DNA of 64,000 nucleotides from NCBI GenBank assembly GCA_900537185.1, contig LS999826.1, forward strand, positions 919,521 to 983,520, read 5' to 3'. The notes beneath the pieces were generated by a model. It was not told where the DNA came from and did no database searches. It was given only the letters and a program-made list of their open reading frames with translations. A program made the translations under genes and the position numbers. This DNA is from Cytophagales bacterium Alg240-R148. GTDB taxonomy: Bacteria; Bacteroidota; Bacteroidia; Cytophagales; Cyclobacteriaceae. Of this stretch, positions 19,991 through 31,714 are shown piece after piece (the stretch's first letter is position 1; each line of letters starts with the position of its first letter).

Positions 19991-20096
19991 CCAATAGAGT
20001 AGTCCATTTTTACACTAGAGGAGATTCTGTGCTGCTATGCGAGCATGTTATTAGGTTATGGTTATATTCGCATGTAGTTAAATAAAAAAAATATTC

Positions 20097-21314
20097 GTGG
20101 TTGATGTAGCATTGATTATACTTTGTGCCTTGTTGGGCAACTATCTATTCAATAAAATAGGCTTGCCCGGCATTTTAGGAATGATATTTACCGGGCTTTT
20201 TCTTGGACCCAGTGGACTCAATGTTATCAACCCGGAAATAACTGTGGTATTAAAAGAGTTCAAAACAGTTGCCCTTATTGTTATTTTAATACGGGCAGGA
20301 TTGGGCATCAGCAAGACTACACTAAAAAGAATAGGTGGTCCGGCTTTAAGGATGGGGTTTGTTCCCTGTTTGATAGAAGGAGCAGTAATCACCATTTTTG
20401 CTTGGCAGTATTTTGATTTTCAACTGTATGAGGCAGGTATGTTGGGGTTCATAGTTGCAGCAGTTTCTCCTGCTGTTGTGGTGCCATCCATGCTTTTATT
20501 GAAGGAAAGCGGCTTGGGCAAAAAGAAGGAAGTACCTACCTTGATTTTGGCTGGTGCCTCACTAGATGATGTAATAGCCATTACACTTTTTGGTGTGTTT
20601 GCAGGAATTGGTGCAGGTTTGGGCACAAACTGGACCTATGTTGTGGTGGGAGTTCCAGCAGGAATTCTTTTAGGAAGCCTCGGTGGAGCGCTTATCGGCT
20701 ACGCATTTGTTTGGTTTTTTAAGCGTTTTCATCTCCGAGATACTTTGAAGGTGATTGTGTTTTTAACCATAGCCATTGTGTTTTACGATTTATCAGAATT
20801 GCCTGTAGTAAAAAAAACAATACCAATAGCTGCCTTGCTTGGTATTATGGCCATTGGGTACATCATATTAGATAAATACGAAGTGTTGGCCACCAGAATG
20901 GCGGCAAAATTTGGCAAGATCTGGGTCTTTGCCGAAATATTGTTGTTTGTATACATAGGTACAGAAGTTCATCTAGATGTTATTGACCCAAGTTCGTTGG
21001 GAATGGCAGTTGGCCTTTTGTTTTTAGGACTATCTGCGCGGAGCGCAGGTGTTTGGCTGTCTTTAATAGGATCGGATTTAAATGCCAAAGAAAAGGTGTT
21101 TTGTATGGTTGCCTATTTACCTAAGGCTACTGTACAAGCCGCTATGGGTGCTGTTCCTCTTGCCATGGTTGTTGCTGGTAAGTTAACCCAAACGTCGGAA
21201 GCAACTGCCCAAAAAATTCTGACAGTTGCTGTGTTGAGCATAATCCTTACCGCCCCCTTAGGGGCCATAGGTATTAAATTATTAGGTCCAAAGTTGTTGA
21301 AAGAAAACCGTTAA
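20097..21314 (+). CDS. Cation:proton antiporter (Na+/H+ exchanger family, NhaP-like)
   Basis: A 405-residue integral membrane protein with about 12-13 hydrophobic segments. The N-terminus LGNYLFNKIGLPGILGMIFTG is the classic antiporter opening. The core has AAVSPAVVVPSMLLLKE and ASLDDVIAITLFGV, where the Asp pair is the usual ion-binding position of monovalent cation/proton antiporters, and a late helix has AYLPKATVQAAMGAVPL, the conserved Lys-containing helix. The start is a GTG at 20097; an in-frame stop lies 18 bases upstream and no upstream ATG exists. No regulatory RCK/TrkA domain follows. It probably serves pH and sodium homeostasis. Confidence 0.88.
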   Translation: MVDVALIILCALLGNYLFNKIGLPGILGMIFTGLFLGPSGLNVINPEITVVLKEFKTVALIVILIRAGLGISKTTLKRIGGPALRMGFVPCLIEGAVITIFAWQYFDFQLYEAGMLGFIVAAVSPAVVVPSMLLLKESGLGKKKEVPTLILAGASLDDVIAITLFGVFAGIGAGLGTNWTYVVVGVPAGILLGSLGGALIGYAFVWFFKRFHLRDTLKVIVFLTIAIVFYDLSELPVVKKTIPIAALLGIMAIGYIILDKYEVLATRMAAKFGKIWVFAEILLFVYIGTEVHLDVIDPSSLGMAVGLLFLGLSARSAGVWLSLIGSDLNAKEKVFCMVAYLPKATVQAAMGAVPLAMVVAGKLTQTSEATAQKILTVAVLSIILTAPLGAIGIKLLGPKLLKENR

Positions 21315-21321
21315 AACCAGC

Positions 21322-22116
21322 TTAATTGTTGCTGTAAATTTTATCACTTCCTTCTAATAAAAGTCCTTCTCCTGGCTGCCATTTGTCATATTCCATATAG
21401 AAAACCACTTCTTTGGCTTTTGGCAACCCTCTAAGTTTTGCAATTAGATGCAGTGCACCATCTATCCCTGCGGAGATTCCAGCTGTGGTTACAATTTTTC
21501 CATTGTCGACAAATCGCACATTGGATAGTACTTCTGTTTCCGGAAAGTCCGATTGTAATAAATCAATAGAACTATGAAAAGTAGTAGCTTTTTTACCTTT
21601 TAGCAATCCGGCTTCTGCCAAAATAAAGGCCCCAGTACAAACCGAAAAATAATACTGAACATGGCTTTGTTTTTTGACCCAAGCAATTACCGCATCGTCT
21701 TGCCTTGCAACTTGTGAGTTACCACCAAAAAACGCTACAATATCCGCTTCTGGCGCGTTGTCAATACTATAGTCGGGTATTATGGATAATACTCCTTGGC
21801 TTTTTATAGGATCCGTGGTTTTAGAAACTGTAAAAATTTCAAACCCTGCATAAGAGAAAGCCTCCATTGGACCAGCAAAGTCCAAAACTTCTACTCCATC
21901 TTGTAAATAGAATGCTATTGTGTTGGTTTTAGACATTTTGTTTTTTGCTACTTGGGTGATTAAATTCATTTTGCAATGGGTGCATTTCCCTTTTTCACGG
22001 TATTCCATCTTATCGCATGCGGATTGGCATGGAGGACACACATAAACCTGATTTTGAGCGAGTGCAAAAGACGATTGGAACAAAAGAAATACAAAAATAA
22101 CTTGAAAATTATACAT
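21322..22116 (-). CDS. Exported DJ-1/PfpI-family protein with N-terminal Cys-rich metal-binding segment
   Basis: A 264-residue protein with a signal peptide (FQVIFVFLLFQSSFALA). Next comes a short Cys-rich module: CPPCQSAC, then GKCTHCKMNL, resembling the heavy-metal-binding domains found on copper-handling proteins. Residues about 65-250 are a DJ-1/PfpI fold, with the nucleophile-elbow Cys in FSVCTGAFILAEAGLL. DJ-1 domains of this type include hydrolases and isonitrile-hydratase-like enzymes; the reaction is unknown. It is 85 bases downstream of the GlxA-type regulator on the same strand, so the pair is probably one unit. Export of a DJ-1 domain is unusual. Confidence 0.85.
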   Translation of the reverse strand: MYNFQVIFVFLLFQSSFALAQNQVYVCPPCQSACDKMEYREKGKCTHCKMNLITQVAKNKMSKTNTIAFYLQDGVEVLDFAGPMEAFSYAGFEIFTVSKTTDPIKSQGVLSIIPDYSIDNAPEADIVAFFGGNSQVARQDDAVIAWVKKQSHVQYYFSVCTGAFILAEAGLLKGKKATTFHSSIDLLQSDFPETEVLSNVRFVDNGKIVTTAGISAGIDGALHLIAKLRGLPKAKEVVFYMEYDKWQPGEGLLLEGSDKIYSNN

Positions 22117-22201
22117 GGTTTTAGATGCTTGGTTGGTGTAAAATTAAACCATGTAATTGGCACATACTAGGACAACCCAACGCAGTATTAGGACAACTCC
22201 C

Positions 22202-23158
22202 TTATTGCAGTTCAGAGGGCAATAGTCCGGTGTGTTTTTTGATTAAACTCCTGAGTTGGTTCTCACTTTTTAACCCACATTGTTGGGCAACATAACGCAT
22301 TTTGTTTTTCTCTTTAATGAGTTGGGTGGCTTTTTCAACTCTTAATAAATCAGCATAAGCCCCAATGGTTAACTGGGTAGTTTTTTTAAACAATCGGGTC
22401 AGGTTGCGTGGACTCATGCCTACAAATTCCGCCAATTTTTCAATGCTGATTTTTGAATTCAAATGTTCCATTATATAATCTTGAGCCTTATGGATTCTAT
22501 CTTCTAAATGGTTTCGGTTTTGTAGGAATACACTAAGTTGTGGGTCTGCTTCGCCCCGTCTGAAATAGAGTACCACCTCTCTGGCGATATCTACTGACAT
22601 CTGAGGGCCATATAAAATTTCAATTATATGCAAAGCCATGTCTATGCCTGCAGTAACACCGGCACTGGTGAAAATATTTTGTGCACGCACAAAAAGCGTA
22701 TTGGGTACCAACTGGGCGTTTGGGAATTTTTCAGAAAATAAGGCGGCCTTTTTCCAATGGGTAGTGCATTTTAAACCATCCAATAAACCAGCTTCTCCTA
22801 AAATAAAGGCACCTGTACAAATGGAACAAACCCAGGCACCTTTGGCATAACAATCGCGCAGCCAATCGTAAAACTCCGGATTGCTTTCAATGGATGTATT
22901 ATTGTCAATTAAACTGGCTTCCATTCCGGGTATGAAAATCAAATCTGCCAAACCAACTTTTACAGACTGGAATGCCTTTAGCTCACCTAAATACAGACCA
23001 GCACTGCTTTGGGCTTTTTTAGAAGTTTCAGTAGATACAAACACCAATTCAAGTGGTGCTCCCATGGCCTGGGCTTCATAAAAAATATGGGCCGGTCCGT
23101 TCAAATCTAACAAATGAACTTTTGGTGGTACAGCGAAAATTATCTTTTGAGCACTCAA
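22202..23158 (-). CDS. GlxA-family AraC-type regulator (DJ-1/PfpI domain plus HTH)
   Basis: A 318-residue protein. Residues 1 to about 190 are a DJ-1/PfpI domain (FAVPPKVHLLDLNGPAHIF; Cys-containing elbow SICTGAFILGEAGLL), and residues about 210-318 are an AraC double HTH (ISIEKLAEFVGMSPRNLTRL; YVAQQCGLKSENQLRSLIKK). The start is a TTG at 23158: an in-frame stop lies 18 bases upstream and there is no ATG before the domain begins. The DJ-1 domain is of the same kind as in the exported protein downstream, suggesting both respond to related ligands. That link is inferred. Confidence 0.9.
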   Translation of the reverse strand: MSAQKIIFAVPPKVHLLDLNGPAHIFYEAQAMGAPLELVFVSTETSKKAQSSAGLYLGELKAFQSVKVGLADLIFIPGMEASLIDNNTSIESNPEFYDWLRDCYAKGAWVCSICTGAFILGEAGLLDGLKCTTHWKKAALFSEKFPNAQLVPNTLFVRAQNIFTSAGVTAGIDMALHIIEILYGPQMSVDIAREVVLYFRRGEADPQLSVFLQNRNHLEDRIHKAQDYIMEHLNSKISIEKLAEFVGMSPRNLTRLFKKTTQLTIGAYADLLRVEKATQLIKEKNKMRYVAQQCGLKSENQLRSLIKKHTGLLPSELQ

Positions 23159-23302
23159 CGTTCTTCTTTTTGTTCAATATGAGTGGTTTTTCTTAAAAAG
23201 AGAAGGGCAGTTCTATTATTTTCAATTTATACAGAAACGGATAACCATGAAATAGACTTATATTGAGTCTTGTGGTACTAACCAAAACTTAAAATTAGAA
23301 AC

Positions 23303-24067
23303 ATGAAAATTTTTATAGGTAGTCTTATCGCTTGTTTGGCCCTTAATTTTGCTCAAGCAACAGAAACCAAATTGATGGTCAGGGCAAAAGCAAAGGATGC
23401 TAAATTTATTGGAACATCTATTGGTGGTGCGTATGTGGTGGTAAAAAATAAAGCCAATGGTTCGATTTTGGCTGAAGGAACTACAACTGGATCTACTGGC
23501 AATACCAATACAATAATGAAAGAGGCCCACCAGCGATTCAGACCCTTGGCAGACGACAAGACGGCTGGCTTTTTAGCTGTGTTGGATCTAGATGCCCCAC
23601 TTTTAATTGCGATTGAAGTTATTGCTCCATTCAATCAGAGGCAAGCCCAGGTTCAAGTTTCAACTGAGATTTGGGTGATTCCTGGGAAGCACATTATGGG
23701 AGATGGTATTGTTTTGGAAATTCCAGGAATGGTCATTGACATTCTTGCTCCGAGAACCCACCAATTTATTTCAAAGGAGCAACTGCAGCATTCAATTGTC
23801 GGGATAGAAGCTAATATTGTAATGATGTGTGGCTGTACCATTTCTAAGGGTGGCTTATGGAACTCAGAAGACATAGAAGTAAAGGTATTGGTATCGCAAA
23901 AAGGGCAAATTATAAAGGAGCAAGAATTGGAATGGGCAGAAAATAATTTGTTTCGTGGAGATTTAAGTCTGGAAGAAGTTGGTACCTATGAGTTGGTGGT
24001 GTACGCATACAATGAGAAAACCGGTAATACTGGAGTAGATAAAGTAAATTTTATACTAAATAAATAG
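23303..24067 (+). CDS. Exported protein of unknown function
   Basis: A 254-residue protein with a clear signal peptide (residues 1-19, ending NFAQA). The mature part looks all-beta and Ig-like in its last third (VKVLVSQKGQIIKEQELEW, YELVVYAYNEKTGNTGVDKV). A short motif MMCGCTISKGGLW at about residues 174-186 stands out, with the only Cys pair of the mature chain. The middle contains WVIPGKHIMGDGIVLEIPGM. I do not recognise the family. It is divergent from the GlxA regulator and ends at its own terminator, so it may belong to the same regulon. Confidence 0.8.
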   Translation: MKIFIGSLIACLALNFAQATETKLMVRAKAKDAKFIGTSIGGAYVVVKNKANGSILAEGTTTGSTGNTNTIMKEAHQRFRPLADDKTAGFLAVLDLDAPLLIAIEVIAPFNQRQAQVQVSTEIWVIPGKHIMGDGIVLEIPGMVIDILAPRTHQFISKEQLQHSIVGIEANIVMMCGCTISKGGLWNSEDIEVKVLVSQKGQIIKEQELEWAENNLFRGDLSLEEVGTYELVVYAYNEKTGNTGVDKVNFILNK

Positions 24068-24098
24068 AGTAGCGCAATTGGGGTAAAATAACCAATTT

Positions 24099-24120
24099 AA
24101 TGTTTTGTAACATTTTTTTT
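24099..24120 (+). terminator. Intrinsic terminator after the unknown exported protein
   Basis: AATGTT (24099-24104) pairs with AACATT (24109-24114) around a TTGT loop, followed by a T-run to 24120. It separates this gene from the flavoprotein operon. Confidence 0.65.
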
Positions 24121-24181
24121 AGTCGCACCTGCATCATTTTTGGATGTGCCCGTCTTTAAGGGTGAATCAAATACAAAAAGG

Positions 24182-25456
24182 ATGCAAAATAAGAATTTAC
24201 CTGTAGCCATTATAGGTGGCGGACCAATTGGGCTGGCAGCAGCAGCACATTTGGTAGAAAATGATATTCCATTTCAACTTTTTGAATCAGGGAACTCTGT
24301 TGGGCACAATATATTATCTTGGAAACATATTACGGTATTCTCACCATGGCAATATAATATGGATAAGGCAGCCATCCGGCTGCTATCAAGGGCTGGGTGG
24401 GACAAGCCTCAGGATGATCTTTTACCCACTGGAGAAGCAATTGTAGAAAAATATTTGCGTCCATTGGCCAACTTGCCTACCATCCAACCTTTTATCCATT
24501 ACGGCAGCAAAGTTTTGTCTGTAGGTAGAAAGGGTATGGATAAAATGAAAACAAAAGGCCGTGATTCGCTGCCATTTTTGTTGCACTTACAAAAAAACGG
24601 AAATACAACATACTTCGAGGCATCCGCAGTAATTGATGCCACTGGTACATGGAACCAGCCCAACCCCATTGGAGCTGGAGGTCGTTTCGCAGAAGGTGAG
24701 TTGGAATTGAATTCAAAAATATTTTATGGAATTCCCGATGTTAAAAACAAACATTTGGATCGGTATAAGAACAAAAATGTGCTGGTAGTAGGCAGTGGAC
24801 ATTCAGCGGTTAATACTTTGTTGGACTTGGCTGCTGTACAGTTGGAGTATCCCGACACCCAGTTGCAATGGGTTTTGAGAAAAAATGATTTGTCGGAAGT
24901 ATATGGAGGGCAAGAAAAAGACGCTTTGGCAGCAAGGGGGCTTTTAGGTTCTAAAATAGAATTATTGGTAAATAGTGGGAAGCTGGACGTTCACACTCCG
25001 TTTCAGGTAATGAAATTGACTGAGAGAGAAGAAGGAATTGAAATAGAAGGGCAAATCCATAACCAGCGCCATGTTATTTCAGGAGTAGATGCTATTGTGA
25101 GCAACACTGGCTCCAGACCCAACTTAGATATGATAAGAGAAGTACGCGTAGATTTAGATGCTAGCTTGGAGTCCGTTTTTGATTTGGCAGAGTTGATTGA
25201 TCCCAATTTACATAGTTGCGGAACAGTGCGGCCCCACGGTGAAAAAGAATTGAGGCACCCAGAATCTAATTTTTACATCGTTGGCTCTAAAAGTTATGGT
25301 CGTGCTCCCACTTTTTTAATGGCCACCGGCTACGAACAAGTTCGGTCTGTGGTAGCACATTTAGCGGGAGACCATGAAGCTGCTGGTAGGGTAGAACTAG
25401 ATCTGCCTGAAACAGGCGTTTGTACTGCACCTAAGTTAGAGACAGCATGCTGTTAA
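24182..25456 (+). CDS. FAD/NAD(P)-dependent oxidoreductase resembling ArsO-type flavoproteins, with CC tail
   Basis: From the ATG at 24182 this is a 424-residue flavoprotein; the frame opens at a TTG at 24140, less likely. It has an FAD-binding Rossmann motif at the start (VAIIGGGPIGLAAAAHL), an ATGTW-type segment (VIDATGTWNQPNP), a second dinucleotide motif (VLVVGSGHSAVNTLLDL) and a late SNTGSRPNL. This is the architecture of flavin-binding monooxygenases and of the ArsO-like proteins reported in arsenic gene clusters. The chain ends in ETACC, a vicinal Cys pair like those of the small protein encoded next. No ArsR or ArsC is adjacent, so an arsenic role is inference. Confidence 0.82.
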   Translation: MQNKNLPVAIIGGGPIGLAAAAHLVENDIPFQLFESGNSVGHNILSWKHITVFSPWQYNMDKAAIRLLSRAGWDKPQDDLLPTGEAIVEKYLRPLANLPTIQPFIHYGSKVLSVGRKGMDKMKTKGRDSLPFLLHLQKNGNTTYFEASAVIDATGTWNQPNPIGAGGRFAEGELELNSKIFYGIPDVKNKHLDRYKNKNVLVVGSGHSAVNTLLDLAAVQLEYPDTQLQWVLRKNDLSEVYGGQEKDALAARGLLGSKIELLVNSGKLDVHTPFQVMKLTEREEGIEIEGQIHNQRHVISGVDAIVSNTGSRPNLDMIREVRVDLDASLESVFDLAELIDPNLHSCGTVRPHGEKELRHPESNFYIVGSKSYGRAPTFLMATGYEQVRSVVAHLAGDHEAAGRVELDLPETGVCTAPKLETACC

Positions 25457-25495
25457 GCGATAATAGAGAAATTTTATTCATTTAAACCAATATTT

Positions 25496-25666
25496 ATGAA
25501 ACAAAGAAAAACAAGTACAACAGCCAGCCAAGGGTCGGTTTGTTGTGGTCCTGAAGTTCAAAAAAGTGCTCCATCAGACTGTTGCGATCAACCAAATGAT
25601 GGTACTTTGTGCTGCGATCCTTCGGCCAGTCAGGAAGAAAATTCAGCCAATACTGGATGCTGCTAG
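25496..25666 (+). CDS. 56-residue protein with four Cys-Cys pairs
   Basis: ATG at 25496, TAG at 25664-25666. The protein has eight cysteines, all in adjacent pairs at residues 16-17, 29-30, 39-40 and 55-56 (contexts VCCGP, DCCDQ, LCCDP and a C-terminal GCC). The N-terminus is basic, the rest acidic and rich in Ser, Asp and Gln, with no signal peptide or membrane segment, so a cytoplasmic thiol-rich metal or metalloid-binding peptide is the natural reading. It lies 39 bases after the flavoprotein, which ends with the same CC tail. Its stop overlaps the ATG of the MFS gene (ATGCTGCTAG), indicating translational coupling. I do not recognise a named family. Confidence 0.8.
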   Translation: MKQRKTSTTASQGSVCCGPEVQKSAPSDCCDQPNDGTLCCDPSASQEENSANTGCC

Positions 25667-26832
25667 AATATGCAAAAAGTACGGCAAAGATCCATGAAAG
25701 GGGCTCTCTAAAGGAGCCTCTTTTTGCTGCTGCGGCTACCTCTATTGTAGGGCTCGGGGATGCTTTTTTGTACCCAATATTGCCAGTTTACTCTGAACAA
25801 TTGGGGTACAGTGCGTTGTGGGTTGGAGTATTGTTGTCTGTAAATAGATTGGTCAGGGTGGTAGGCAACACTTTTGTTGCCCGTTTAATTTCTAGCTATG
25901 GCTCAAAAAAAATACTATTGTTTTGTTCTGTTTTAGCCGTTATAACCACTGCTTTGTACGGGGTTGGTTTAGGGGTATGGCTATTTTTATTTTGTCGAAT
26001 ACTTTGGGGTTTGTCCTATTCCGGGTTTCAATTAGGGACTTTAAATTTTGCAGCTGCAATTAAAACAAAAAAAGGGTTGGCTTTTGGTCTAGTAAAAAGC
26101 ATCAAGAGTTTAGGGCAGCTGGTTGTTTTGTTTTTGGGTCCAGTGTTGCTAGAACGCGTTGGTCTAACCAACAGTTTTTTTATTATAGCCACAGGTGGCG
26201 GGATGGGTGTCTTACTCCTGTGTTTTTTGCCTAATAAAACAATTCAGTACAGCAAGGAGCCTATTACTTTTAAAAGAACCTTTTCGGTAACCCCAATTAA
26301 TTGGATGGTTTTTGTTTTTGCTCTGGTAGTGGATGGCGTTATGGTGGTAGGGTTGGCTGAATTTTTAAAACCAGATTATGCAACAACCTACCACTTAGTA
26401 GCAGCGGTAGCAGCCTATTTGCTTGTGAAAAGGTTGGCATTGGTAGTGCTTTCTTTATTTGTTGGGTACTTTTCTTTATTTTTTAACCCCTCAAGAATGT
26501 TCCTAGCAGCTGCATGTTTGGTTGTTGGCGGCGTGTTAATGGTGTTGTTCGGATGGACCAGCCTGGGGTTGGTAGTCGTTTTCATTTGCAATAGTGTAGT
26601 CGTTTGTTTTGCACCTTATATAGCGGTTCAGAACAACCCAGTCCATCCTCTTCAACCACTTTCAGCCGTTAGTACCTGGTGGGATATTGGTGCTGCCTTA
26701 GGGGCATTGGTTGGTGTGTATTTATTGCAGAATCTAGCGCATTTCTGGGTGCTGTTGGCGTTGTTTATTCTGTGTTTTATGTCTCTTTTATACTATTTTT
26801 TGGAGACAAGAAATAAAGAGGTGGTGCATTAA
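25657..26832 (+). CDS. MFS transporter, probable efflux pump of the flavoprotein/CC-peptide operon
   Basis: From the ATG at 25657 this is a 391-residue protein with about 12 hydrophobic segments. It has the typical first repeat (AAATSIVGLGDAFLYPILPVY; LLSVNRLVRVVGNTFVARLI with the loop 2-3 basic residues) and AFGLVKSIKSLGQLVV between helices 4 and 5. The open frame reaches back to a GTG at 25609, but that would bury it in the peptide gene; the ATG overlapping the peptide stop is preferred. MFS proteins next to ArsO-like flavoproteins have been proposed as exporters of arsenic species. The real substrate here is unknown. Confidence 0.88.
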   Translation: MLLEYAKSTAKIHERGSLKEPLFAAAATSIVGLGDAFLYPILPVYSEQLGYSALWVGVLLSVNRLVRVVGNTFVARLISSYGSKKILLFCSVLAVITTALYGVGLGVWLFLFCRILWGLSYSGFQLGTLNFAAAIKTKKGLAFGLVKSIKSLGQLVVLFLGPVLLERVGLTNSFFIIATGGGMGVLLLCFLPNKTIQYSKEPITFKRTFSVTPINWMVFVFALVVDGVMVVGLAEFLKPDYATTYHLVAAVAAYLLVKRLALVVLSLFVGYFSLFFNPSRMFLAAACLVVGGVLMVLFGWTSLGLVVVFICNSVVVCFAPYIAVQNNPVHPLQPLSAVSTWWDIGAALGALVGVYLLQNLAHFWVLLALFILCFMSLLYYFLETRNKEVVH

Positions 26833-27092
26833 AACGAAATAAGACTGTGCTTGGCGCCTTAATTAAGTACTTAAGAGGTTTTGGTGAAGCTGGAAATAAG
26901 TAGTACTTTTCAAACCATTTTACAGGATGGGAGGTGTTTGTTGTCGTGCCTATTGTTGTAATGAAATACTCCATTTTATACTGTGGTATGTACGGTTATG
27001 CATAGGTGTTTTTAAAGGTTGGTATTCATTTGCTTGGCTATAAACCCTTTCATCGTTATATACAAAAAAACATTTAAAACATTTGGAATTAT
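26833..27092. other. Intergenic spacer, no gene seen
   Basis: A 260-base AT-rich region. It contains a 12-base perfect palindrome TTAAGTACTTAA just after the MFS gene and no convincing terminator or ORF. Confidence 0.4.
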
Positions 27093-27650
27093 ATGGCTTC
27101 AATATTTGGACATGCATTGGCCGCCACCACAATAGGTAAAGTATACCAAAGCAAAACAGAAGGATGGAAGTTTTATTTATTGGGTATTGTTTGCGCAATT
27201 TTACCAGATGCGGATGTAGTTGGATTCAAATTTGGCATTGCATACGAAAGTTTTTGGGGGCACCGAGGTTTTTCACATTCCTTATTGTTTGCTTTGTTAC
27301 TAGCAGTTTTTGTGGTGTTGGTGTTTTTTAAAAAATCAGGAGGCCAACAAAAGCTTTTACTCGTTTCTTATTACTTTTTATGCACCGCTTCTCATGCTGT
27401 TTTGGATGCCATGACCAGTGGAGGTCTAGGGGTTGCTTTTTTTTCTCCTTGGGAGGACTCCCGTTACTTCTTTCCATTTCGACCTATAAAAGTATCTCCA
27501 ATTGGGATAAAACAGTTTTTTAGTACTTGGGGGATAAAAGTATTGGTAAGCGAATTGGTATGGATTGGAATTCCAACGCTGACCTTTTTAACCTGTAAAG
27601 TATTAATGCAAAAGTTAGTCTTATATTTCATTGAAAAAAAAGAAGGGTAA
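27093..27650 (+). CDS. YdjM-like (DUF457) membrane-bound metal-dependent hydrolase family protein
   Basis: A 185-residue membrane protein. The metal-ligand pattern of the family is visible: an early His (GHALAATTIGKV), ILPDADVVGF, the tandem-His motif WGHRGFSHSLLFALLL, and a later ASHAVLDAMTSGG. About four membrane segments surround these. The family is annotated as metal-dependent hydrolases but with little direct biochemistry. It is followed by a palindrome and the TPR gene on the same strand. Confidence 0.85.
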   Translation: MASIFGHALAATTIGKVYQSKTEGWKFYLLGIVCAILPDADVVGFKFGIAYESFWGHRGFSHSLLFALLLAVFVVLVFFKKSGGQQKLLLVSYYFLCTASHAVLDAMTSGGLGVAFFSPWEDSRYFFPFRPIKVSPIGIKQFFSTWGIKVLVSELVWIGIPTLTFLTCKVLMQKLVLYFIEKKEG

Positions 27651-27653
27651 TAC

Positions 27654-27668
27654 ATCCTTTTAAAGGAT
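27654..27668. promoter_or_regulatory. 15-base inverted repeat upstream of the TPR gene
   Basis: ATCCTTT-T-AAAGGAT is a perfect inverted repeat with a single central base, 46 bases before the TPR gene start. The one-base spacer prevents a normal RNA hairpin, so a protein-binding operator is the more natural reading; no regulator is assigned. Confidence 0.3.
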
Positions 27669-27713
27669 ATTAGCGTTGTTTTTTGGTATGCGTTTTAATA
27701 ACTTATTGCTCCT

Positions 27714-29390
27714 ATGATAGTAAAACGGGTTCTTTTGCTCACCTTTTTGTTGATTAGCCAACATTGTTTTGGACAATTGGACAGTTTGATGTCTGTTTGG
27801 GGTGGCCAGGAATACCCAGATTCCATAAGAATAATGGCATTGCACCAAGCTATTGATGCCCATTTTGTTTATACCAATCCGGATTCAGCAATGGCCTGGA
27901 CCGAAGTAGCCCTGCTTCAAAGCAAATCAAAAGGGTTGGACAAATGCATAGCGGAAAGTTTAAGAATGAAGGGGAAGGTCAGTTTTATGACCGGCAATTT
28001 TGACGACGCATTACAATGGCTCCAACAAAGCTTAGAGAAATCTCAGGCCATTCAGTTTGACGTTGGAATAGCCAGAAACTACAACAATATTGCACGAGTC
28101 AATGCCGAAATTGGCAACTACACTGGCGCCATCGATTATTACGAAAAAAGTTTGGCCATTAGTGCATCCATAAAGGATAAATTTTTGGAAGCTGAATTGT
28201 TGAATAGCATAGGGTATATCAACTTACTACAAGGCAATAACGACTTGTCGATTCAGTACTTTGATCGAAGCAAATTGATATCGAAGCAAGAGCAATACCA
28301 TTTGCTACATTCTTATACGTTGAACAATACCGGAACGGCTCTCGAAGGAAAAATGTTAATTGACTCGGCCATAAGCTATTATCGGCAAAGTTTGGAAATA
28401 AAAAAACGTATAAATAACACCAGGGGTATTGCATATTCGCAGGCAGCTTTGGCCAAGGCGTTGAACAAAAGAGGGGCCTATGACGCCGCTTTGGAGTATA
28501 TCGAATTAAGTTTGAAATTGCGAACAAGTATTGATGATAAAAGTGGTGTAGCCGATGCCATGGTTATAAAAGCCTCTGTTTTATTGGTCCAAGGAAAAAT
28601 TGGCTCATGCATTCAGTGGGCAGAAAAGGGCCTTGCAATTGCAAAGCATATTGGGGTGTCCAGTGTCGTGAAAGACGCCTCCGAAATTCTCTATAAGGCC
28701 CACAAAAAAAACAACAACATCTCCGCATCTTTTAAATATTTGGAATCTTTTAAAGCGCTAGACGACAGCCTTAAAAATATAAGCATTCAGGAGGAATTGC
28801 TCAAACACAAATACCAGAATGAATATGAAAAAAAGGTAATAGGAGACAGCATCAATTTTTCGAACCATTTGAAGATGGATGCCTTGGCAATACAAGAGCA
28901 GAATGCCTTAATAGAGCGCAATAGATACGAGAATATATTGTTGTATGGAGGGCTTTTTACTTTTGTAATTTTGGTGTTGGTGCTGGTACGATACTTAAAA
29001 CTTGAAAAAACTGCCAAGTTAGAAGTTACCAAACAGAAAAATGCTGTTGAGTTGCACCGAGATGAAATGAAAGAGGCCAAGTTTTTATTGGAAGAGCGAA
29101 ATGAAGAAATTAAAGTGCTCAATTCTAATTTGGAAAGTACAGTAACCAAACGAACACAGGAATTGAAAAATTCTTTGGATAAGTTACAAGAGCACCAATG
29201 GGAGTTGTCCCACAAAATTAGAGGCCCCATAGCAACCATTAGAGGGTTGCTGTTGCTTATTGAAAACGACAAGATAAATAGCGAAGACAACGCGGTAATA
29301 CTTCAAAAACTAAAAGAGAGTACCAGTGCCTTGGATGTTGTAATTGCGGAGTTATCAGAGAAACTTGATGATGCTTCAGAAATACGCTAA
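27714..29390 (+). CDS. TPR sensor protein with membrane helix, coiled coil and kinase-less histidine-kinase DHp domain
   Basis: A 558-residue protein. A signal peptide (about residues 1-20) is followed by six or seven tetratricopeptide repeats (about 50-360; for example DDALQWLQQSLEKSQAI and GAIDYYEKSLAISASI), a membrane helix (about 405-427, ILLYGGLFTFVILVLVLVRY), a coiled coil with a T-K-R-T-x-E-L-K-like end, and then LSHKIRGPIATIRGLLLL, a clear histidine-kinase H-box with the phospho-acceptor His. The protein stops about 55 residues after the H-box, so the ATPase domain (N, G1 and G2 boxes) is absent. Similar truncated architectures occur in Bacteroidota; the output mechanism is unclear. 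Confidence 0.85.
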   Translation: MIVKRVLLLTFLLISQHCFGQLDSLMSVWGGQEYPDSIRIMALHQAIDAHFVYTNPDSAMAWTEVALLQSKSKGLDKCIAESLRMKGKVSFMTGNFDDALQWLQQSLEKSQAIQFDVGIARNYNNIARVNAEIGNYTGAIDYYEKSLAISASIKDKFLEAELLNSIGYINLLQGNNDLSIQYFDRSKLISKQEQYHLLHSYTLNNTGTALEGKMLIDSAISYYRQSLEIKKRINNTRGIAYSQAALAKALNKRGAYDAALEYIELSLKLRTSIDDKSGVADAMVIKASVLLVQGKIGSCIQWAEKGLAIAKHIGVSSVVKDASEILYKAHKKNNNISASFKYLESFKALDDSLKNISIQEELLKHKYQNEYEKKVIGDSINFSNHLKMDALAIQEQNALIERNRYENILLYGGLFTFVILVLVLVRYLKLEKTAKLEVTKQKNAVELHRDEMKEAKFLLEERNEEIKVLNSNLESTVTKRTQELKNSLDKLQEHQWELSHKIRGPIATIRGLLLLIENDKINSEDNAVILQKLKESTSALDVVIAELSEKLDDASEIR

Positions 29391-29506
29391 AACCGAATTG
29401 TCTACTTGAAAACAGAAAAGTTGAGTAGCCAAAATAGTTCTTTTGCCCACCATTTGTGTATCTATAGCATATACCTTATTTTTATCGGTACCTAAACACC
29501 GTTACT

Positions 29507-31714
29507 ATGAAACTAATGAAAAGACTTTGGCTTTTGTTTTTGCCTCTAATTCTAGCCTGTTCAGATAACAAAAAATCAGAAGTAAATGAAGAGGAGAAAC
29601 GTTGGGAAAACCACGCAAAACACGTTGAAATAATTCGGGATGATTTTGGCGTGCCGCATATTTACGGTAAAACGGATGCCAACGCAGTGTTTGGGTTGCT
29701 GTACGCACAATGCGAAGATGATTTCAACAGAGTAGAGCAGAATTACATTTGGGCAACCGGGAGGTTGGCAGAAGTGGAAGGAGAGAAAGCGCTTTACAGT
29801 GATTTAAGAGCCAATTTGTTCATGACCGAAATCGAGGCCATAGAACGGTACGAAAAGGCACCAGATTGGCTCAAAGATCTGTGTGTGGCTTTTGCTGATG
29901 GCATTAATTATTATTTGGAAACACATCCAGAAGTACAACCTAAACTGATAACGCACTTTGAACCTTGGATGCCTATGTATTTTAGTGAAGGTTCGATAGG
30001 CGGGGATATTGAGCGCATCTCGACTCAGAAAATAAAAGCGTTTTACGAAAGTGGTGCACCTGAAGTGGCCATGCAACCGGTGCACGACGGCTTACTTCGG
30101 CTATCAGATAATGAACCAAGGGGGTCCAACGGTTTTGCTCTTTCAGGGCAAAAAACGGCCTCTGGAAATGCCATGTTACTCATCAATCCGCATACTTCCT
30201 TTTTCTTTAGAGGGGAAGTGCATGTTGTGAGCGAAGAAGGTTTGAATGCTTATGGTGCCGTTACTTGGGGGCAGTTTTTTGTATACCAAGGTTTCAATGA
30301 AAAAACGGGGTGGATGCATACCTCGACTTATACCGATATCCTAGATGAATTTACGGAAACCGTTGAAACGGACAAAAATGGAAAGGTGTATGCATATGGA
30401 GAAGAAAGGAGGCCAGTAGATTCGGTGCAAATAGAGTTGAAATACAAAGAAGGGACAACAATAAAAACAAAACCATTTACAATGTACCGCACCCACCATG
30501 GTCCAGTAACCCATAGTCAAGCAGGGAAATGGGTGTCTACTGCCATGATGTGGGACCCAGTAAACGCGTTGGTCCAATCCTATACTAGAACGAAACTAGC
30601 CGACCACAAGGCGTTTAGAGACATGATGGACATTCGTACCAATTCATCCAATAACACAGTGTACGCAGATGCAGAAGGAAATATAGCGTATTACCATGGG
30701 AATTTTATTCCTAAAAGAGATACCACATTTGATTATACAAATCCTGTGGATGGAAGCAACCCTGCTACCGATTGGCAAGGGTTACACGATGTTGCTGATA
30801 ACATAACAGTGATTAATCCATCCAACGGCTGGATCCAAAATTGTAATTCTACCCCTTTTACCAGTGCAGGAGCCTCCAGTCCTAAAGCCAAAGACTATCC
30901 CAAATACATGTCGGAGAATATAGAAAATTTTAGAGGAGTTCATGCCATTCGGTTGTTAGAGAAAGCCAGTGATTTGACATTGGATGGGCTCATCAAACTA
31001 GCTTACGACCCCTACCTGCCAGCTTTCGAGACTTCCATTCCAGGATTGATTCACGCCTTTAACCAGCACACCGACAGCCATAAAACCCTTACCGAACCGA
31101 TGGAGATTTTAGAAGGTTGGGATTTTTCAGTTTCTAAAGAAAGCAAAGCCATGACACTTGCGCACTTTTATACCATACATTATTTACGGAATGGAGAGTT
31201 TCCAGAAGGGCTGAGCTTTATGGAACGAGTAGAGTATTTAGCACAGGTTTCCGATCCAATTGAAAGATTGGAAATGTTCCAGGCAACATTAAAAAGTTTG
31301 CAGGAAGATTATGGCAGTTGGAATTTGGCATGGGGCGAGGTGAATCGGTACCAACGCATTAATGGAGACATACGCCAACCATTTGATGATGCTGCAACAA
31401 GTTTACCCGTTGGCCTGGCCTCTGGAAGGTGGGGCGCTTTGGCTTCTTTTGGGGCTAGAAGGTATAATGGCACCAAAAAATTATACGGAACATCGGGCAA
31501 CAGCTTTGTAGCAGTAGTAGAATTTGGAGATAAAGTACACGCTAAGTCTATGTTGGCAGGAGGGCAAAGTGGTGACCCAACCTCCAAACATTTTTCTGAT
31601 CAAGCCCAACGTTATGTAGACGTACAATTTAAGGAGGTGGCCTACTACAAAGAAGACGTGGAGAAAAGGGCTCAAAAAAGGTACCATCCTGGGGCACAAA
31701 TTGAAAAAAAATAA
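29507..31714 (+). CDS. Penicillin-acylase-family (Ntn hydrolase) lipoprotein
   Basis: A 735-residue protein with a lipoprotein signal (LLFLPLILAC, Cys at 18). The alpha-chain start VEIIRDDFGVPHIYGKTDAN is characteristic. The autocatalytic cleavage and nucleophile site is EPRGSNGFALSG, with the catalytic Ser at about residue 207, followed by INPHTSFFFRGEVHVV. The beta chain contains RTHHGPVTHSQAG and ends with the family's GGQSGDPTSKHFSDQ motif. Relatives deacylate beta-lactams, echinocandins or acyl-homoserine lactones; the substrate is not determinable here. It lies in the envelope and is followed after 26 bases by a Crp-type regulator. Confidence 0.93.
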   Translation: MKLMKRLWLLFLPLILACSDNKKSEVNEEEKRWENHAKHVEIIRDDFGVPHIYGKTDANAVFGLLYAQCEDDFNRVEQNYIWATGRLAEVEGEKALYSDLRANLFMTEIEAIERYEKAPDWLKDLCVAFADGINYYLETHPEVQPKLITHFEPWMPMYFSEGSIGGDIERISTQKIKAFYESGAPEVAMQPVHDGLLRLSDNEPRGSNGFALSGQKTASGNAMLLINPHTSFFFRGEVHVVSEEGLNAYGAVTWGQFFVYQGFNEKTGWMHTSTYTDILDEFTETVETDKNGKVYAYGEERRPVDSVQIELKYKEGTTIKTKPFTMYRTHHGPVTHSQAGKWVSTAMMWDPVNALVQSYTRTKLADHKAFRDMMDIRTNSSNNTVYADAEGNIAYYHGNFIPKRDTTFDYTNPVDGSNPATDWQGLHDVADNITVINPSNGWIQNCNSTPFTSAGASSPKAKDYPKYMSENIENFRGVHAIRLLEKASDLTLDGLIKLAYDPYLPAFETSIPGLIHAFNQHTDSHKTLTEPMEILEGWDFSVSKESKAMTLAHFYTIHYLRNGEFPEGLSFMERVEYLAQVSDPIERLEMFQATLKSLQEDYGSWNLAWGEVNRYQRINGDIRQPFDDAATSLPVGLASGRWGALASFGARRYNGTKKLYGTSGNSFVAVVEFGDKVHAKSMLAGGQSGDPTSKHFSDQAQRYVDVQFKEVAYYKEDVEKRAQKRYHPGAQIEKK

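Follow-up and report, generated by a model that had tools for sequence, protein, structure and literature searches.

What does an open reading frame of 56 residues, with eight cysteines that all lie in vicinal (CC) pairs, do between the genes for a flavoprotein and an MFS transporter in Cytophagales bacterium Alg240-R148, and is it a gene at all? We addressed this question in a stretch of 64,000 nucleotides of contig LS999826.1 (hereafter, the window), in the rest of the same genome and in related loci and genomes, asking how well the small frame is conserved, in what gene context its neighbours occur, and from which promoter and by which sigma factor the operon is likely to be expressed.

A conserved gene for a small protein of paired cysteines

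Re-reading of the small frame (Table 1) confirmed what a preliminary description of this DNA had reported, namely a 56-residue ORF with eight cysteines in four pairs and a stop codon that lies over the start of the MFS gene. The frame runs from ATG to TAG and places its cysteines at residues 16-17, 29-30, 39-40 and 55-56; its ATG lies 39 nt downstream of the flavoprotein stop codon (25454-25456), and the ATG of the MFS gene falls within its last codons, giving a 10-nt overlap, with an alternative GTG at 25609, in the MFS frame, that is also open. The N-terminus has no hydrophobic stretch on inspection by eye, and the CxC motif is absent from all 56 residues. Exactly four pairs were formed by the eight cysteines in 28 of 200,000 shuffles of the peptide's residues, and among the 323 ATG-initiated ORFs of at least 30 aa in the window this is the one with at least three CC pairs. 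At an E-value of 0.01 the peptide matched no family in Pfam and none in NCBIfam, and so has no match to the ArsD model NF033727; a sequence search of solved structures returned two weak matches.

Table 1. Features of the operon in the window (positions are those of the window)
Feature	Position	Strand	Basis
Putative SigZ-type ECF promoter motif: -35-like TGCATC (24130-24135), -10-like CGTCTT (24151-24156)	24130..24156	+	Flavoprotein ATG at 24182
FAD/NAD(P) flavoprotein, 424 aa, Pyr_redox_3	24182..25456	+	Pfam
Flavoprotein tail, C414 to C-terminal vicinal pair C423-C424 (codons 25448-25453)	25421..25453	+	CC in relatives' tails
CC peptide, 56 aa, four vicinal Cys pairs	25496..25666	+	ORF, conservation, dN/dS, shuffles
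CC-peptide stop / MFS start overlap (ATGCTGCTAG)	25657..25666	+	-9 spacing in 11 relatives; junction sequences
MFS transporter, 391 aa, putative exporter	25657..26832	+	PF07690, E 5e-22; relatives

More than this composition, it is conservation that makes the stronger case for a real gene, as seen in the adjacency to the flavoprotein, the CC pairs, the way the frame overlaps the start of the MFS gene, and dN/dS values below 1. With the flavoprotein as query we obtained 91 loci holding a strong relative, picked by their likeness to the window (one set being the best 80 of at least 580), and after two duplicates were dropped there were 34 non-Bacillota loci, which are mostly from Bacteroidota with one Balneolaceae MAG and further genomes and MAGs, and 55 Bacillota loci. 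The idea that the peptide is kept beside the flavoprotein and transporter held in part: 24 of the 34 non-Bacillota loci have a separate CC peptide on the same strand beside the flavoprotein, and ten do not. In five of these ten (L116, L124, L030, L031 and L046), a CC...GCGC module is fused to the flavoprotein tail, and the other five (L119, L120, L122, L123 and L029) have neither the separate peptide nor the fused module, the flavoprotein tails of L119 and L122 holding four and three CC pairs, respectively. The fused module represents a sister type of the window peptide; in the sole fusion assignment tested by alignment, the L066 peptide and the L030 flavoprotein tail are 58% identical over 55 aa. 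Since the 34 loci were picked by likeness to the window, and since the four flavoprotein genomes L121-L124 of an even draw over the phylum (in which 5 of 296 genomes have the flavoprotein) are all without a separate CC peptide, these counts overstate its frequency. A profile built from 20 CC peptides, which, being short and rich in Cys, could overlook distant types, recovered the window copy only from 395 genomes of the phylum, our own included.

The alignment of 20 peptides keeps Cys 16, 17 and 29 in every sequence and Cys 30 in all but one. The proposed conservation of all four pairs therefore stood for these cysteines and not for the third pair, which is lost in seven peptides, or for the last, which is lost in the five of the ENIP type, where an additional pair occurs elsewhere. 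A CCxQPxDGxxCC stretch is common to the window type and the types of L032, L033, L038, L048 and L069. All ten pairwise comparisons among five close loci gave dN/dS values of 0.16-0.36, with the last three codons excluded. As the preliminary description had anticipated, the overlap with the MFS start is also conserved, the same -9 spacing being kept in 11 relatives and thus in 12 loci with the window; the MFS start at the overlap is GTG or TTG, not ATG, in L025, L027 and L028. Conservation and dN/dS together rule out a chance ORF, and the CC peptide frame is a real, conserved gene.

Partner genes and their arsenic context

The flavoprotein itself ends in a CC pair (423-424), a feature absent from the preliminary description, and its C414 lies within TGVC. 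Among 89 aligned flavoproteins, C346 and C414 are cysteine throughout, C423 in 80 and C424 in 84, and a CC pair occurs within the tail in 33 of the 34 non-Bacillota and 51 of the 54 Bacillota tails read; in 41 of the 55 Bacillota loci, the longest ORF carries an additional CC ahead of the FAD motif. The fold predicted for the window protein from 48 sequences (pLDDT 79.7, pTM 0.82) is nearest to the bacillithiol disulfide reductase YpdA/Bdr (Z 29.2, rmsd 2.6, 311 aligned), with flavin monooxygenases next (Z about 25). In this model the region around C346 (residues 326-351) and the tail score below pLDDT 50, too low to place C346 relative to the flavin. Despite the alike fold, the protein is not a YpdA/Bdr (44.6 bits against a cut-off of 339.9 for TIGR04018), and the suggestion that it is ArsO-like fell at 43.7 bits against the ArsO cut-off of 425 (NF040505). 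No MerA model is among the 19 NCBIfam families that it matched. In plasmid records, relatives of the flavoprotein were found in 124 of 72,556, and among the 15 of these listed, 14 carry the name of an NAD(P)-binding or FAD-dependent protein and the other is unnamed. Relatives of the MFS transporter at over 100 bits are present in 25 of the 34 non-Bacillota loci, the window included, and no cysteine column among them exceeds 11 of 25. The window transporter matched six NCBIfam families at an E-value of 0.01, none of which is ArsJ, in a library that may lack a model for it.

In Bacillota, the family is surrounded by arsenic genes. Within flanks of up to 6 kb, the 55 Bacillota loci contained genes of the ArsR cluster in 45 cases, of ArsB in 38, of ArsC in 37, of an ArsN-type acetyltransferase in 25 and of ArsD in 5, each cluster being named from one tested representative; the ArsC, ArsB, ArsN1a, ArsD and Acr3 representatives scored over their cut-offs and the ArsR one over the cut-off of the general ArsR/SmtB family. 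At least one ArsC-, ArsB- or ArsD-cluster gene was found at 40 of the 55 loci, and at least one when ArsR is counted as well at 48 of the 55, which bears out, for this flavoprotein family in Bacillota, the earlier expectation that such flavoproteins occur in arsenic gene clusters; the window itself is linked to ars genes only within its genome. MarR-type regulator genes also lie near the flavoprotein in 36 of the 55 Bacillota loci (L036-L096; the L043 copy was tested), and most copies have an internal and a C-terminal CC pair; this regulator is a possible metalloid sensor.

On the Bacteroidota side, arsB and arsC are seldom found inside the operons themselves. A second flavoprotein gene in the L019 operon, the one related operon tested, is a true ArsO (490.6 bits against 425), and a PatB-type C-S lyase is encoded in 5 of 25 loci (373 against 340 for the L024 copy tested); L035 has, beside the flavoprotein, an ArsR over its cut-off together with ArsC and ArsN below theirs. 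The genome of Alg240-R148, which is 99.92% complete, gave no match to Acr3 or ArsB, and control searches for these two pumps matched in 7 of 14 and 6 of 14 genomes, respectively. About 27 kb beyond the window it encodes an ArsR and an ArsI/CadI, both over cut-off, with a weak ArsC-like gene (L181:492-1974; G000:C1 near 1010770). Both this ArsR and this ArsI end in CC; the stretch read around the group contained no pump gene, and its first 900 nt contained no SigZ-type motif. From its gene context, the operon in the window is probably an arsenic-detoxification operon.

A shared promoter motif and a SigZ-like sigma factor

Upstream of the window flavoprotein lies the sequence TGCATCATTTTT-N9-CGTCTT, which resembles a SigZ-type ECF promoter. 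The preliminary description had mentioned neither this motif nor a SigZ-like sigma factor. The window contains one match to this motif, and an exact one, where chance would give a mean of 0.10 for up to 2 mismatches. The motif was found upstream of the flavoprotein in 27 of the 34 loci read, 24 of them with the strict TGCRTC form, and TGCRTC-N14-17-CGTC occurs within 160 nt before 24 of the 34 flavoprotein starts and in none of 100 shuffle rounds. Its T-rich version, YGCRTCWTTT, is present at 23 of the 34 non-Bacillota loci and at 0 of the 55 Bacillota loci, and the strict form without the T-run precedes six of the 55 Bacillota flavoproteins (L034, L037, L045, L051, L055 and L057). The window CC peptide has no motif of its own and is dependent on the flavoprotein promoter. 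An ordinary sigma-70 promoter was rejected, as a generic scan of 23900-27100 gave 5 sites against a shuffle mean of 7.2, with none at 24130, and an Rfam scan of 20000-30000 detected no RNA element at gathering scores. The sites before the six Bacillota flavoproteins, which lie in Paenibacillus upstream regions, read TGCGTC...CGTC, and no SigZ-like gene was found in these loci.

Throughout the 5.3-Mb genome, TGCRTC-N14-17-CGTCTT occurs at 8 sites (reversed control, 0), of which two are T-rich. One of these stands before the flavoprotein and the other before an orphan sigma gene (G000:C4:171412-172024; L106:9412-10024), ending 64 nt ahead of its ATG; thus, two unlinked genes share a promoter-like motif, and its placement suggests that the orphan SigZ-like sigma gene is probably autoregulated. 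Among 59 genomes, our own and 58 relatives, the T-rich pattern gave 10 hits in 7 genomes (reversed control, 4), three of the ten being in genomes without the flavoprotein. It is present in 5 of 7 genomes with a strong flavoprotein match versus 2 of 52 others (Fisher 8e-5; without our own genome, 4 of 6 versus 2 of 52, 5e-4) and in 4 of 9 genomes with a SigZ-like gene versus 3 of 50 others (Fisher 0.008; without our own, 0.03). The motif stands 125 nt before a CC-peptide gene in G015 and 30 nt before one in G025; G024 has it before a CxxCH-bearing protein that lacks a Pfam match, at about 2.6 kb from arsR-arsC-acr3, and G029 has two hits with nothing recognised downstream. G011 contains the flavoprotein and the motif with no SigZ-like gene at an E-value of 1e-20, and its motif lies ahead of a molybdoenzyme operon (L137:10287-13339), which encodes an FeS subunit and a PhsA/ArrA-like molybdoenzyme that falls below every specific NCBIfam cut-off.

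A second set, the 20 flavoprotein-bearing genomes behind 21 loci, gave 32 motif hits in 18 genomes, with one in the reversed control. These genomes were chosen for the flavoprotein, and the motif had been discovered before that gene, so the flavoprotein hits are expected and it is the other hits that are informative. The 30 hits with sequence comprise 15 before the flavoprotein, 8 before a cytosolic CC peptide (in 8 genomes), 2 before a SigZ-like gene, 2 before an exported protein that contains Cys (at a distance of 157 nt in one case), and 1 each before an exported CC peptide, a phosphatase-like gene beside sigma genes and an ArsR-like gene; of the two hits without sequence, one lies ahead of the L018 copy of the exported Cys-containing protein. 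Predicted exported proteins with a common SCRGAKTKFGEAK stretch are encoded in the same operons (L018:7210-7731, L019:10679-11215 and L023:12237-12722); the L019 protein has no Pfam or NCBIfam match, and proteins of this type are preceded by a SigZ-type motif in the L018, L023 and L028 genomes.

In many related operons, an ECF sigma gene follows the MFS gene. SigZ-like genes, taken as those with at least 45 bits to our own sigma, lie on the same strand in 25 of the 34 loci, on the opposite strand only in 4 and near none of the remaining 5, which include the window; our genome has one close copy, which is unlinked (C4:171503-172024) and 50% identical to the L019 sigma. For two sigma proteins tested, SigZ was the best family with the tail included, but both fell below the cut-offs of NF007215 and TIGR02959 (153 and 165 of 212, and 149 and 152 of 168.65, respectively), hence our use of the term SigZ-like. 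In 26 sigma sequences (25 loci over 90 bits and our own), C94 and C153 are conserved in 26 of 26 and C152 and C173 in 23 of 26 each, in the numbering of our own protein, in which C94, C153, C152 and C173 correspond to Cys 95, 154, 153 and 179 of L019. The region-4 match of L019 spans residues 95-146, so that Cys 95 is its first residue, at the sigma4 border and not inside the linker, and the CC pair lies behind it; the predicted sigma model (pTM 0.45) is too weak to place Cys94 against Cys152-153. A strong flavoprotein match and a SigZ-like sigma (E 1e-20) occur together in 5 of 7 versus 4 of 52 genomes (Fisher 5e-4; without our own, 2e-3), and 4 of the 9 SigZ-like genomes have no strong flavoprotein match. 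Among five other SigZ-like loci, the SigZ-like gene has an ArsP_1 permease next to it in L149 and an ArsI/CadI gene over cut-off in L147, and the 3.5 kb read in L144, L145 and L148 contained no arsenic gene. An unsystematic look at the surroundings of the sigma genes revealed no recognisable anti-sigma gene. The motif and these co-occurrences suggest that the SigZ-like sigma probably switches on the operon.

A proposed metalloid response and its alternatives

Small vicinal-thiol proteins, flavoproteins with paired cysteines and cysteine-bearing sigma factors all have known counterparts. The arsenite metallochaperone ArsD uses vicinal Cys pairs to bind As(III) and hand it over to ArsA, and the CC peptide resembles it as a small cytosolic vicinal-Cys protein of ars operons, with an ArsD-cluster gene itself present in 5 of the 55 Bacillota flavoprotein loci, but it has no sequence match to NF033727, is about half the length, is of low complexity and is paired with a flavoprotein and an MFS transporter. 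Bacterial metallothioneins of the SmtA type are likewise short and Cys-rich, whereas the cysteines of the CC peptide are all in CC pairs, with no CxC and no Pfam match. In MerA, a flavoprotein, a C-terminal vicinal Cys pair hands thiol-bound metal to the enzyme, and the window flavoprotein also ends in such a pair. The CorE-like ECF sigma factors (ECF44/ECF238) have metal-sensing cysteines in a C-terminal extension, and in CorE both this Cys-rich extension and a CXC within the linker are essential (PMC3107203, PMC8999054). The SigZ-like sigma is similar in having cysteines in a C-terminal extension (C152, C153 and C173, behind a region-4 match that ends at 146 in L019), a cysteine near the sigma domains and no recognised anti-sigma; it differs in that one invariant cysteine (95 in L019) at the border between linker and sigma4 takes the place of a CXC in the sigma2-sigma4 linker, in that a CC pair and a terminal cysteine stand where CorE has a six-Cys domain, and in an arsenic-type rather than a copper or cadmium/zinc gene context. 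An enzyme gene combined with an MFS exporter gene in an arsenic module is described for the GAPDH-ArsJ pair in a review (PMC6205960), from which pair the present module differs in its enzyme and in the addition of the CC peptide; that review and a second one (PMC12607644) both treat the function of ArsO as unsettled.

We propose, with a probability of roughly 0.6, that the operon belongs to a metalloid-responsive SigZ-like regulon in which the CC peptide acts as a buffer or carrier of As(III) that serves the CC-tailed flavoprotein and the MFS exporter. This reading draws on the conservation of and selection on the peptide gene, the order of SigZ-type promoter, flavoprotein, CC peptide and MFS gene, the motif with its second copy, the co-occurrence with the sigma, the arsenic context and the fusion of the CC module. 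Weighing against it are the five loci with neither form of the CC module, the rarity of the flavoprotein in the even draw, the lack of a well-conserved cysteine in the MFS transporter, the scarcity of arsB and arsC in Bacteroidota-side operons, the first 900 nt of the genome's own ars group, which are free of the motif, the motif hits in G011, G024 and G029 and before six Bacillota flavoproteins, and the SigZ-like genes found apart from a strong flavoprotein match or from arsenic genes. The metalloid would most likely be arsenite, and the response would begin with the entry of As(III) into the cell or its production by an ArsC. The unlinked SigZ-like ECF sigma, with its cysteine at the start of sigma4 and the CC pair behind, may then sense it and transcribe both the operon and its own gene. 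The cytosolic CC peptide would bind As(III) through its vicinal thiols and either buffer it or pass it on to the flavoprotein's CC tail, to the MFS pump, which would be translationally coupled to the peptide, or to both. Candidate reactions for the flavoprotein are the reduction of thiol adducts and the oxygenation of As(III). The fused CC modules favour an action of the peptide with the enzyme over one on the sigma, and the overlapping start of the MFS gene points to a role in export. More tentatively, and in a form that we regard as doubtful, the arsenic response of Bacteroidota would run through a sigma factor and not a repressor, with Cys94 and the CC pair forming a three-thiol As(III) site and with a relay from the peptide to the CC tail of the flavoenzyme and on to MFS export.

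The same observations admit other roles for the peptide. That the nearest solved fold is a bacillithiol disulfide reductase, and that the flavoprotein has invariant C346 and C414, a CC tail and, in some loci, the fused CC module, would fit a thiol redox partnership, in which a YpdA-like NADPH flavoprotein reduces the pairs of the peptide, or reduces disulfides or metalloid-thiol adducts with them, and metalloid binding is secondary; with a score so far below the YpdA cut-off, flavin monooxygenase folds also close and an arsenic context, we consider this unlikely. It is rather improbable that the peptide is instead a regulatory partner of the SigZ-like sigma, one that competes with the CC tail of the sigma or loads metalloid onto it and so tunes the response: the two proteins both have CC pairs, in many loci their genes are close together on a common strand, the peptide gene is preceded by a sigma-type promoter of its own in 8 of the 20 genomes and also in G015 and G025, and the unsystematic look at the sigma genes recognised no anti-sigma, but five loci carry a fusion of the CC module to the flavoprotein, the MFS-start overlap extends over 12 loci, and the sigma is unlinked in the window genome.

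The ligand could also be another soft metal, such as copper, mercury, gold, antimony or cadmium. Many soft metals are bound by CC thiols, and the names of two neighbours of SigZ-like genes, ArsI/CadI and ArsP_1, do not imply specificity for arsenic; the ArsB, ArsC, ArsD, ArsN and ArsO representatives that score over cut-off around the family point to arsenic, and we think it quite unlikely that another metal takes its place. Tandem Cys codons beside a stop/start overlap would suit a Cys-codon leader, in which translation of the CC codons controls translation of the MFS gene and the peptide itself has no role, yet dN/dS is well below 1, synonymous changes occur inside Cys codons, some peptide genes follow the sigma gene and have a promoter to themselves, and the CC module is found fused to the flavoprotein. 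Such a leader is highly improbable, and peptides apart from the MFS gene with a promoter of their own, together with the five fusions, led us to reject it for the family.

Analogues are known for each ingredient of the proposed response, from small CC proteins and enzyme-plus-MFS modules to Cys-sensing sigma factors. The CC peptide may represent a new type of small carrier for arsenic. In the open-licence literature, as far as titles and the openings of abstracts go, nothing describes the CC peptide or a link between SigZ and arsenic. If the relay holds, the CC peptide would be the founding member of a family of arsenic carriers with vicinal thiols, adding a class of arsenic-handling proteins so small that they can escape ORF cut-offs. 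It would also give a likely function to a flavoprotein family that the plasmid records listed name, at most, as NAD(P)-binding or FAD-dependent, a concrete candidate signal to SigZ-like sigma factors, and an arsenite export route to a genome that has no match to ArsB or Acr3, the two pump families searched. Should the SigZ-like sigma sense As(III), it would be, to our knowledge, the first metalloid-sensing sigma factor.

Other genes near the operon, and in related loci, can be noted here. Just upstream of the promoter, a gene at 23303-24067 (+) of the window encodes a 254-aa protein that begins like a signal peptide and matches nothing in Pfam or NCBIfam, and further upstream there are two adjacent DJ-1/PfpI genes (21322-23158, -), one joined to an AraC-type regulator and the other with a Cys-rich N-terminus. 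In two related loci, CC peptides with a signal-peptide-like start are encoded downstream of the cytosolic ones (L035:9623-9823 and L040:9558-9758) and are a possible periplasmic counterpart; the L040 copy has a SigZ-type motif of its own (L177).
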